DNA from: Onchocerca volvulus
Lineage: Eukaryota > Nematoda > Chromadorea > Rhabditida > Onchocercidae
DNA length: 64,000 nt
Direction of reading: 5' to 3'
Assembly: GCA_000499405.2 (NCBI GenBank)
Contig: HG738138.1
Coordinates: forward strand, 4,142,368 to 4,206,367
Each line of letters begins with the position of its first letter. Position 1 is the first letter of the stretch. Positions 46,538-51,827 of the stretch are shown here, piece after piece. The notes under the pieces were generated by a model that did not search any database, had not been told where the DNA came from, and saw only the letters and a list, made by a program, of their open reading frames with translations. The position numbers were made by a program, and so were the translations under genes.

Positions 46538-49500
46538 TTAAGGTGATTTGCCGCCAATCCGGCCCACTTTTGAAGCACTATCTTCAGAAACTGCAATCGC
46601 ATTCTGCACCTAAAAATCTCATTTCTGCATTATGAATATGTCGTTAAAACACTTCATCCGACACTGGGACGAAATATTTGATAAGGACAGCCGCATTAAA
46701 AATGTGAAAAAAGAGAATATTTTGTCATAATGACAAAAGTAAACTTATCATTAGAAACCCTGAATATCTATTTCAGAAAACTTCGACACAATCTCCAAAT
46801 CAGGGAAGAACAATCTAAGTATTTCAAAAGAGCAATACGACAAACTCATTAATCAAGGACATAAAAAATATTACCTCACAATCTTCGCGAATTATTTTCG
46901 GAAAATGCGCTTTAATCCAATCTTCTGAAAAATTGCAATTTTTGTTTCATGAACTTCGTTACCGAAAACTAAGTCAGTTATAATGAGTATGCAATATAAA
47001 ATCTTGGAAATTTTACAGTAGATGAAAACATTAAACAAGAACTTACTCCACAACAGAAAGCCCAAATCATTCTTTGCATGAGCTGAACCAAATGTTGAGT
47101 GATAAATCCACTGCTGCCCATTACAATCCACATCAACAACAATGTTGTCCTTAACGAAATCTTCTGCTTCCTTTGCATCCATCACAAACTGCACATACTC
47201 AGTAAGAGGATAAGGTGGACAGCGTATGTAGCGATAAATACGTGATGGACGACCTGTTTCTACTCGTCCTAAATCACAACAAATTTAAATAGTTCTAGTC
47301 TAGTTTTTACAACTTCATATAAGCTCATATGCTCTAAAATAATTGGAATCTTTTCGAAGTATAGTAATATGATGCAGTTCTATTCTGTTTGAAAAGAAAG
47401 TCCGCGATCTAAGATAAATGGATGAATTTTGTTAGTCCTTTATTTCTTCCGAATTTTGTTTATGTTTGGGAAAATGCTAATCGAACAATACAATGATAAA
47501 ACTAACCAACAATGGGACGTGGAGGTAATACAAGCGCATGAAAATTGCCATTCATATAGCCAAGCAACAAAGGTGGGCATAATCGATAGTTGTTCAAACC
47601 AGGCAGTTGTGGGTAAAATCCTTCAACTGGATGCTTCCAACCATCACGACGTCTATCCCGAGCAGGGAATGGATTTAATTTTGATGATTCAATAGGAAAT
47701 ACAATGATTGGACGATTCAACACCTGTGCCAAAACAAGTATATGAATCTGAAATAACATTAAGACAAAGCTGACTTAGACAAGTGCAAACAAGGTTTGAA
47801 AATATTTCCTTTAATACTGCTACAAAAAACAAGAAACTGCAAATACCTGCTCTAATGGGAAACCAGGATCGTTGCACTCGATAATGTTTGACCAATGACG
47901 TTGCATCATCCAAATATCGAAATTTAATCCGAGTTTCATTAAAGAAGTTGCCCATCGACCTCGAAAGCTAAAGAAATTTACTAGAAGAACGGAGGCATTA
48001 TTTTATATTCATATTTCAGTTCAAAAGATAAGTATAATTCTTAATGAGATTAGTTAATGAAAACGAAAAATGTGATAGTAAAAATAAAGAGGAACATTTA
48101 ATTTAAATAAATTTACTTAGTTTCCATTGCATATAGCGTGTGGTATAATGCATCACGAAGTGTATTACTTTTGTCAATTACACCCCACAATGCCTGAAAG
48201 GAATCAAGCAATGAAGTTTTAAAAAACAAAAAAACAAAGCAATATCAGCCAGTCCTTAAACAGCTCTGTACATCAATTCTATTATTAATTTACAACACAG
48301 ATTTCAACTGGTAACATATATACAAACCTGTGAAACTGCATCCACAAGACTGTGTCCTCCTCCACGATTTCGCAACAATAATGGTGCATAAGTCTGACAA
48401 CCTGTTGGTCCTGACAGAGAGTGTGCATCCATGCAACACACTGTGTCAAGTATTTCTAAAATTGAATTCATATGATGAAAAAAAATGTATTAGAATTTCT
48501 ATTTAAATAATTTTTTATTCTCCTTTTTTCTCCAACTCTAAGATAGCTGGTGAATTTTGAATAATTCTGAATAATTCTCAAGATGACAAGCACATCTGGC
48601 AAAAATCAATAATGTTCACTACGGTAAACTCGTTTTTAGAAAATAATTATAAAATTTCAATATCTTACGACGATCATCGAGATCCATTAGGACACGAAGA
48701 TTATTTTCGCCGGAAACTACCCATGGTCGCAAATCATAAATTGCTGAAAAATTTTTGCTAAAGCTCTTGTACATCCAGATAAACCAGCTTACTAAGAATC
48801 TAATTCAGATTGCTTAAACCATAGCAGCTCACTATTACGAAATTGGTGTTTTTTCCTGAGACTAACCATAACATTTACAAAGGTCAGATTTCCGATCAAA
48901 TAATATAGGTATGCATCACAAATAATAATAGTAATATAACAAGCAGAATGCTGACATATCAATCAATATTAGAAAATCACCATTTGGCAGAGTGAACAAG
49001 GCATTATTGTTGGCGACACGCGTCATATCATAATCTTCGTACATACTTTCGCGTATTTTCTTGTGAATTTCATCAGAAGAGTCACCACTTGCTCCAAAAA
49101 AGAAGTATATATATATTATAAGAAAAAAATGTGACAATTGCATTGCAATTCCTCAGTTTTTTTAAACATGAAGAGCATTCCTAGCTGCAATCCAGAGAGC
49201 ACACATTTGTCAGAAAAAGCAAAAGAATCCATAAAAGAGATAACAAGAAATAAAAAAAAGAACCAATCTATGTTTTCAAGAAAAAAAATAAAAGTCACAA
49301 AGAAAAAAAACTAATACGACCTAAAAAAACAAATAATTGATTTTTCGGACAAGAACAAAATTAATGCATACCTAATCCTGGAATTGCAACTGTACAAGAT
49401 AATGAATCCATGAAAAATCTTGGCACACTTGCCAAAATCCTGCTGTTCTTGCTTCGAATAATATCAATAATTGAGCGATTGACAACTGTTGCTGCACTCT

Positions 49501-51827
49501 CTTCGTCAACATCGTTTAACAACATAGACTGCAAATTAGGGGGAATTGGGAAAGCAATGATTATGGAGAAACAAAAGCAATATTTTTAGCAAGTATCAAA
49601 AGAAAAAAAGAAAAACCAAACTACAGAACTTCATTTGTATCGAAAAATTTCCAGAAATGAAAAGAAAAATTCTCACGAACCACAACTTGGACATGAAACT
49701 AAAAACAAAAAAATAAAAAATAAATCAAAAGGTTTATTCTTATTTTCATACAATAATTAAACTTTTTTTGTTGTGTAGTTGGACATTTTACAGGATAAAG
49801 ACTGGGTAGTAAGACGTGTGAAAAATAATACGCCTAAAACTTCAGAAACACAAAATAACATAGTCACATGGCTCCAAAGCCACAACAAGTCTCATGCAGT
49901 TCGAACAGCAATGGACGGAATAAAGCGTATTACGATTGTCAGAGAGGAATTGTTTACATGTATATTTTTGTTCTGTCTATAACTGTATCATGTCCGGGAT
50001 AAAGCAAGAATTCTGACAGTGGTGGCTTTGCTGATAAACTGCGCATATCGTAAGAATCCTTTAAGAATCCGATATTCGGCTCTTCCGACTAATACAAATG
50101 TAACAAATCATAGGAAAAATTTTATTCTAAATACTGAAGAGCATCAAAAATTAACCTCAAACCCACTGATTCTTCGATTGCTTTCGCCATAATGATAAAT
50201 GTAATGAATAAGTTTAGCTTCAGCGTCAGTGCTTTGTCGGAGGATTTCAGCACATGTTTCCAGGAATGATGCGCAACCCGTATCAATCTGTACATTGTTT
50301 CAGACAATACGCGAATGAGCAAATAAAAACAGTTATATCAGAAAACAAACATAGTACAAAACTAAAATGAGGATAACTTACAGATTTATTCAGATGAGAA
50401 AGATACATGTCGAGAAAGGTAATTCGCTTATTTAAATTCACATTATCTACTTTCCCAATTCCATGATAATCTTCACTTCCTCCTTCAGCAAAATCTAAAA
50501 TATTGTCATTTATGGGAATTATAATGACTTCTGACATGAGACAGCATGAATTCTATTTTTTTAGCAAACTTAGTAGAACGAAATGTCTATGTGCAATTTT
50601 TGAATATTTTATTATTGGAAAACCAAGCACAAGAGCTTCAAGTAAAAGCTATACAAAAAAATCGTGAACTGCAATAATCTGAATCCTATTACCACAAATA
50701 TTAAACTGCACAGAAAAACTTGCATGAAGAAGAAAAAATAGAGCAATTTTTAATTATAAACCTTTCGTATTTTTTTCCGCATATTTTGGCAGATTTTCAG
50801 TTTCTTCCTTGATTGAGGAATGACATGTTGCAATATCGCCTTCTCCTCAAAAAAAAAAAAAAGAAAAAATCAAATTCTAACTGCTTCATATGGGAAAGCA
50901 TAAGATGTACAATTATGCTTAGAAGAATATTTCTGTCTTCAATCCTCCTAATTCCACTCGATTCTTATATGCAATATCAAAAAATTACGAAAAAAAAAAA
51001 AAAAAAAACAAAAACAAAAACTGCATGACGGCAAGATCAACTCAAAAGAGTCGTATGTTTAAGGAAATACCATAATATTCTAAAACTAAACTAAATATAA
51101 CTTAAACAAAGCAAACCATGAGAATCCTGACAAACGATATTGCTACCAATTCCCACAGAAACATAATCTTTTGGTGTACCACACATTGTGCAATGTTTAA
51201 CGTTAGGCCAGTTCTTGTAAGTACACTGCGAGCAATCCCACTTATGTAACGCTTTTCCTAACTTTTCAACGTGTTCGAGATCGACTGAGCATTCATCTGA
51301 CATTTCAGAAATATTTGAAAAAAAACTAAACAAAACGAATACTAATACAGGAATATTTTAAGAGCTATCTAAAAAACATATAAAGCTCAATGACATATTA
51401 TTAGGATTAGACCAACTATACATATAAATATATATGTATATCGTTGATATATACATTCACATAAAAGAAAAGAATACTGTCACCAAAAAAATTTAAGAGC
51501 GAAATAATTAGAAAATCACTTTATTTTTCAAAATTTGTGACCTTTGCAGACGAATTCCTTTTCATCCTTAGTATCAAAATTATTGGGTCGTTTATACATG
51601 CAAACTATACAGTGGCGAGATTTCAGAACATTCAGGTATGTGCAATCCGGACAAGGCCACCGTTGTTCAGTTTCTTCACCACCGCAAACAGCACTGGAAG
51701 TACAAGGTGGTGCGGTAATAAAAACTGAATATCGTGGAATACGACACATCGTGCATGCCTTTGCCGTTTGAAAATTTGCGTAAGTACATTGTGAGCAGGT
51801 CCATTTTTCTGTTATATCGCTTGCCAT
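46538..51827 (-). CDS. TRABID/ZRANB1-like NZF-OTU protein with a catalytically dead OTU domain
   Basis: Sixteen exons close to 730 codons: 51542-51827, 51117-51296, 50762-50845, 50382-50530, 50156-50287, 49984-50088, 49372-49528, 48981-49091, 48669-48743, 48328-48455, 48117-48193, 47847-47967, 47507-47747, 47047-47268, 46875-46924, 46538-46609. Length, three N-terminal NZF fingers (WTCSQCTY, WPCPDCTY, WDCSQCTY, each with four Cys and the Thr-Tyr ubiquitin-contact dyad), an ankyrin-like middle and a C-terminal OTU fold match human TRABID, a K29/K33-preferring deubiquitinase. The OTU helix reads GGHSLVDAVSQALWG where active TRABID has GDCLLDSVLQATWG. The catalytic Cys is therefore Ser462 and the preceding Asp is His461. 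The His motif GHFSALV reads GNFHALV, giving Asn603. EQ-IHILVLAQVLNRPIIVF confirms the A20/TRABID class. Hydrolase activity is not expected, while ubiquitin binding should persist. The third exon acceptor is the weakest splice. An acceptor 6 nt before the ATG suggests trans-splicing. Confidence 0.88.

Follow-up and report, generated by a model that had tools for sequence, protein, structure and literature searches.

A TRABID-type gene of Onchocerca volvulus with an altered active site: a probable ancient pseudo-deubiquitinase of spirurine nematodes

TRABID (ZRANB1) has been studied as a deubiquitinase of K29 and K33 chains, and its C443S form has been used to trap substrates. A TRABID/ZRANB1-type gene lies on the minus strand of a 64,000-nucleotide stretch of the Onchocerca volvulus genome (assembly GCA_000499405.2, contig HG738138.1, positions 4,142,368 to 4,206,367; hereafter the window, within which all unprefixed coordinates are counted). 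At the positions of the catalytic Cys and His, the OTU domain of its predicted protein carries Ser and Asn. The Ser is found in every relative that we could align over the site and the His in none, and the protein is probably a pseudo-deubiquitinase of long standing in the nematode suborder Spirurina.

The gene and its domain layout

Read on the minus strand from 51827 to 46538, a first model joined 16 exons through 15 GT-AG introns into a 717-codon frame with zero internal stops. The exon at 50088-49984 was rejected and dropped because it is a gap in all 16 nematode relatives in the alignment of the gene's protein and because its letters, sought among 139 fetched proteins, were present in none of them. 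Ab initio models are likely to include this segment as a false exon. After the correction the protein is 682 residues long, with Ser415 and Asn556 (Ser450 and Asn591 in the 717-codon model). Six bases upstream of the ATG, TTTTTTACAG at 51834-51843 on the same strand could be a trans-splice or intron acceptor. Rfam gave zero matches in the whole window.

The predicted protein identifies the gene as a TRABID/ZRANB1 orthologue: it combines three NZF fingers with an OTU domain of the A20 class that most resembles that of ZRANB1. Pfam matched RanBP-type zinc ribbons (PF00641, E = 2.6e-14) and OTU (PF02338, E = 7.8e-07), and the closest solved structure was human TRABID, 3zrh (E = 2.3e-20, with A20 and OTUD7B both at 1.1e-10); single exons used as queries against the PDB gave zero matches. 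A profile built from 15 nematode relatives matched 3zrh at E = 8e-25, in an alignment spanning 3zrh residues 41-347, and aligned with full-length vertebrate ZRANB1 over 530 columns at 30 percent identity. Three NZFs, each with the W, four Cys and C-T-Y/F-x-N, were present in the model and in 14 of the 16 relatives, and the remaining two (P0001 and P0014) begin inside the NZF region and hold one finger each. TF replaces TY in NZF2 of Ascaris and in NZF2 and NZF3 of Anisakis; TY is kept in the other nematode NZFs.

The first-pass annotation of this DNA, made from the letters alone, had described three complete NZF fingers and a TRABID-type OTU domain, a description borne out by the NZF patterns and by 3zrh as best match. 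Its coordinates for the Ser codon also stand, but its numbering (729 codons, Ser462 and Asn603) gives way to that of the 682-residue protein.

The altered active site across Spirurina

In the alignment with 3zrh, vertebrate GDCLLDSVLQATWG falls opposite nematode GHSLVDAVSQALWG, with GHS in place of GDC, and vertebrate RGHFSALV falls opposite NGNFHALV, with GNF in place of GHF. Three active-site residues are changed (vertebrate numbering): C443 to Ser, encoded by AGT at 48351-48349; D442 to His; and H585 to Asn, encoded by AAT at 47546-47544. The spirurine TRABID lacks both the Cys nucleophile and the His base of a canonical OTU cysteine peptidase. The Ser-Asn spacing is 141 residues; C443 and H585 of vertebrate ZRANB1 are 142 apart, and among the relatives with both motifs (15) the distance ranges from 139 to 142. 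GDCLLD and RGHFSALV were kept in the best 120 of 1186 matches to a human TRABID fragment, all of them vertebrates where named.

These changes are shared among 17 aligned sequences, comprising the gene model and P0001-P0016 (P0005 being a second B. pahangi model). The Cys column is Ser in 17 of 17 and the preceding residue His in 17 of 17. At the His column, N stands in 13, S in two (Gongylonema and Anisakis) and C in one (Dracunculus), and the residue is missing in one, the D. immitis model P0007, which is without that segment. Fragments concur where they overlap, P0017 (A. viteae) at the His loop and P0018 (W. bancrofti) at the Cys loop. Because GHSLVDA is common to all 17 aligned sequences, we exclude chance as its source. 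The loss of Cys and His in an uninterrupted gene, as claimed in the first-pass annotation, is confirmed by Ser in 16 of 16 relatives and His in 0 of the 15 that cover the column; its count of two losses overlooked the third change, Asp442 to His414, and its spacing of 141 stands for this protein.

Two ways of restoring the active site were considered and rejected. His558, two residues on, might act as a shifted catalytic His, but that column is His or Tyr across the relatives. Three motif patterns run over the six frames of 46000-52500 found no alternative Cys-helix or His exon, including the different Cys exon that the first-pass annotation had thought possible, and the same patterns detect an intact OTUD7-like gene of this genome, which served as a control. 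The coordinates of the features are collected in Table 1.

Table 1. Features of the TRABID/ZRANB1-type gene in the window
Feature	Coordinates	Strand	Remarks
GHSLVDA, altered nucleophile loop	48337..48357	-	Ser415 replaces catalytic Cys, His414 replaces Asp442; 17/17 aligned sequences
NGNFHALV, altered His loop	47529..47552	-	Asn556 replaces catalytic His585
TRABID/ZRANB1-type gene	46538..51827	-	ATG at 51827, stop ends at 46538; corrected model of 15 exons and 682 codons
NZF finger 1, WTCSQCTYANFQTAKACTMC	51744..51803	-	Pattern match; PF00641 over the protein
NZF finger 2, WPCPDCTYLNVLKSRHCIVC	51600..51659	-	Pattern match
NZF finger 3, WDCSQCTYKNWPNVKHCTMC	51181..51240	-	Pattern match and Pfam; matches TRABID NZF chains 4s1z/5af6
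OTU domain core, residues 401-565 (corrected model)	47517..48393	-	Over several exons; PF02338, 3zrh
35-codon segment, splice-consistent and in frame	49984..50088	-	Probably no exon; gap in all 16 aligned relatives

The Ser motif occurs in 12 named species (W. bancrofti, B. pahangi, C. johnstoni, T. callipaeda, D. immitis, G. pulchrum, E. vermicularis, S. muris, A. lumbricoides, T. canis, D. medinensis and A. simplex), and both altered motifs occur in 11; a thirteenth species, A. viteae, shows the change in the His loop. All 13 belong to the suborder Spirurina (Spiruromorpha, Ascaridomorpha, Oxyuridomorpha and Dracunculoidea), and the named matches in two protein searches with nematode queries were solely spirurines. 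The closest relatives of the gene model are filarial, and in the tree it takes its place among them. Our estimate of age rests on these Spirurina relatives, as the protein searches brought up no relatives from C. elegans, Strongyloides or Trichinella among the matches listed. Drosophila Trabid has a putative catalytic Cys at position 518 that is required for full activity (PMC3930493; papers cited here by PMC number are represented by excerpts). Since vertebrate ZRANB1 and fly Trabid keep the Cys, the active-site loss appears to have arisen in the nematode line after the arthropod split and before the spirurine radiation, an age dated from below only. The comparison across filariae and ascarids that the first-pass annotation had proposed for dating the losses makes them ancestral to Spirurina, not species-specific, and does not reach a deeper age.

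Several public models of the orthologue look faulty. P0007 (Dirofilaria immitis) is the model without the His-loop segment, and P0005 (B. pahangi) and P0001 (W. bancrofti) carry extra segments that could stem from intron retention or duplication.

We also searched the O. volvulus genome (94,684,704 bases in 115 contigs) for other OTU genes. With a cut-off of E = 0.001 the gene model gave 16 matches, none of them outside the TRABID locus. A human TRABID fragment, searched at E up to 10, matched the TRABID locus once (E = 0.027) and positions 6962703-6963748 of contig C2 three times (E = 5.6e-4, 0.046 and 0.49). Frames at the latter locus read GDGNCLLHAASLGMWG and YDSAHFSALV, very close to the OTUD7B chain, and we take it to encode an OTUD7/Cezanne-like OTU with intact Cys and His; found in the same genome, it speaks as an internal control against errors of sequence or alignment. 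A second intact TRABID, also contemplated in the first-pass annotation, was therefore rejected, as the model's matches all fall at one locus and the additional human-fragment matches belong to the OTUD7-like gene. A Pfam OTU search of the genome gave two matches to short OTU exons (C3:1712308 and C2:17671906), neither at the TRABID locus. Near these positions are the Cys-bearing motifs GDGACLF and GDCLYNAV, suggesting Cys-bearing OTUs of other kinds.

Constraint on the altered domain

Site rates were estimated from 16 spirurine sequences (P0005 dropped) under LG+G4 and are protein-level measures. Relative to a mean of 1.0 for the whole protein, the linker evolved at 2.05 and the OTU core at 0.61, with means of 0.66, 0.71 and 0.42 for NZF1, NZF2 and NZF3, respectively. 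A 17-residue stretch about Ser415 had a mean of 0.25, and the His loop averaged 0.65. GHSLVDA was the slowest of 675 seven-residue windows and the sole invariant 7-mer among 676 windows, whether each column had to be covered by 12 sequences, by all 16 or by any number between, a conservation test on the nucleophile loop that was run post hoc, after the site was already known. Because GHSLVDA is both the slowest and the only invariant window, the nucleophile loop appears to have changed and then become fixed, without decay; at the former His position N, S and C are all found. Together, the rates of the OTU core and the invariance of GHSLVDA describe a fold kept by selection without its catalytic residues, the mark by which a pseudo-deubiquitinase is recognized in sequence.

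Constraint in the OTU core extends to residues that are not those of vertebrates. At 25 of the core's 59 spirurine-invariant columns (at least 14 of 16 sequences present) the residue is not that of vertebrate ZRANB1, and six of these 25 lie at the Cys loop; fixed changes near that loop are T439G, L445V, S447A and L449S (vertebrate numbering). Four Cys or His residues absent from vertebrate ZRANB1 are conserved in spirurines: C479 and C585 in 16 of 16 sequences, C545 in 15 of 16, and H527 in 15 of 16 with one gap. C585 lies just past the OTU core.

What the altered protein may do

Given its conserved domains and lost catalytic residues, spirurine TRABID is probably an ancient pseudo-deubiquitinase that serves as a ubiquitin-chain reader or scaffold. 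The sequences show that Cys became Ser, Asp His and His Asn (Ser or Cys in some lineages) before the spirurine radiation, while constraint preserved the NZFs and the OTU scaffold. Under this interpretation, polyubiquitin would be captured by the three NZF fingers, perhaps with an ankyrin-like region, and the OTU domain may hold a ubiquitin in its substrate site and leave it uncut. In this way the protein might shield, read or bridge partners that carry ubiquitin, which is what the C443S laboratory form of human TRABID does. A role as reader, trap or scaffold is suggested by analogy with the C443S and C518S mutants and by the kept NZFs. The excerpt of PMC7948964 tells of two catalytically inactive forms of human TRABID, C443S and one lacking the OTU domain, that still trap ubiquitin by way of the NZFs; mutation of the NZF TY residues lowers this trapping. 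The excerpt of PMC3930493 describes fly Trabid C518S as retaining a moderate effect on TAK1 K63 ubiquitination, with none remaining when the three NZFs are also mutated.

Several observations weigh against a non-catalytic reader. Fly Otu, the reports of whose inactivity are discussed below, has reportedly been found active with a partner in later work, which we count toward the non-canonical hydrolase considered below. USP53/54, annotated as pseudoenzymes, are active (excerpt of PMC12037411), and USP52 is another predicted pseudo-deubiquitinase reported to be active (excerpt of PMC10919355). Ubp8 C146S binds K48 di-ubiquitin with a dissociation constant of 4.6 µM, and it is the Ala form that is the tight binder (excerpt of PMC6172466), so that a strong ubiquitin trap is not assured by a Cys-to-Ser change. 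The ankyrin model PF18418, applied with a cut-off of E = 1, matched 0 of 15 nematode members; residues 241-340 of P0003 were predicted to be mostly helical (block predicted local distance difference test [pLDDT], 59-85) within an otherwise poor structure model. Two structure predictions were of low confidence, with mean pLDDT of 37.2 and 40.0 and predicted template modelling (TM) scores of 0.25 and 0.31. In Foldseek, 3zrh TRABID was still the top match (E = 6.2e-09), but we give this little weight, as the TM scores were 0.18/0.27 and the root mean square deviation 22.7. The second model (P0002) has Ser424 immediately ahead of a helix and Asn565 opening a strand, the arrangement that an OTU should show (block pLDDT, 51 and 52).

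The GHS loop itself could be a newly built site and no dead remnant, formed in the spirurine ancestor along with the other fixed changes and the new Cys and His residues in or just past the OTU core, and serving either as a dedicated pocket for a ligand or ubiquitin tail or as a non-canonical catalytic centre, a suggestion from sequence that we regard as doubtful though worth entertaining. That the protein is instead a scaffold independent of ubiquitin seems unlikely to us: the altered loop is under stronger constraint than any other stretch, the 25 changed invariant columns would fit a new interface, and a scaffold role for OTUD4 is quoted in the excerpt of PMC6172466, but the conservation of three NZFs of ubiquitin-binding type, NZF3 slowest among them, argues that ubiquitin binding still matters. 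We think it distinctly improbable that Ser415 or Cys479/Cys545/Cys585/His527 forms a new centre cleaving ubiquitin or another modifier. The invariance of His414-Ser415, the newly conserved Cys and His residues and the USP precedents would accommodate such a hydrolase; however, the position two residues beyond the lost base is H or Y and offers no conserved His as a substitute, and fly OTUs with Cys-to-Ser changes are described as inactive despite keeping His and Asp (excerpt of PMC4654579).

Relaxation of the gene and decay toward loss would explain two lost catalytic residues, but is very hard to reconcile with 15 exons in open frame, a motif identical in all 17 sequences and an OTU core evolving far more slowly than the linker. 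An artefact of gene model or assembly, or an alternative exon restoring Cys and His, is scarcely credible: one of the 16 splice-consistent exons was indeed spurious and the model is built from genomic sequence, but the altered motifs recur in proteins of the species named above and the six-frame scan of 46000-52500 with three patterns was empty.

The pseudo-deubiquitinase interpretation can be set beside several known systems. Spirurine TRABID resembles human or vertebrate TRABID and Drosophila Trabid in having three N-terminal NZFs, a middle region and an A20-class OTU domain in the same order (for Drosophila, as far as the published description excerpted from PMC3930493 goes), and its OTU domain can be aligned with that of vertebrates from the Cys loop to the His loop; the alignments of the nematode proteins with vertebrate ZRANB1 and 3zrh stop short of the region after the His loop. 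It differs from vertebrate TRABID in having S, H and N at C443, D442 and H585 and in leaving PF18418 unmatched. With laboratory C443S (human) and C518S (fly) TRABID it shares the Cys-to-Ser change and intact NZFs, but the nematode change is natural and suborder-wide, and with it the His and the Asp beside the Cys have gone too. Drosophila Otu and CG3251, of the OTUD4 family, have likewise lost the nucleophile naturally by Cys-to-Ser change and showed no activity in vitro (excerpt of PMC4654579). They belong to another OTU subfamily, keep His and Asp, and reflect recurrent losses in insects, as opposed to one old shared event. The human pseudo-OTU FAM105A also has an OTU fold without an intact triad (same excerpt); it is related to the active OTULIN (FAM105B), whereas the nematode genome yielded a single TRABID copy, the altered one. 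Pseudo-OTUs are therefore already known (FAM105A and fly Otu/CG3251; PMC4654579), and what appears new here is a probable pseudo-deubiquitinase of TRABID type across a whole suborder. Among the titles listed in searches of the open-licence literature there was no paper on a nematode TRABID or pseudo-deubiquitinase, nor one on a TRABID-type pseudo-deubiquitinase common to a suborder.

Spirurina include the agents of filariasis, ascariasis, pinworm and Guinea-worm disease, and in these animals a change equivalent to C443S appears to be permanent and kept. Database names on these nematode proteins include 'Ubiquitinyl hydrolase 1' and 'Ubiquitin thioesterase ZRANB1', and such enzyme names may mislead anyone treating the spirurine proteins as enzymes to inhibit. 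Because the change is suborder-wide, the question of which TRABID functions need catalysis becomes one that comparative biology can test.

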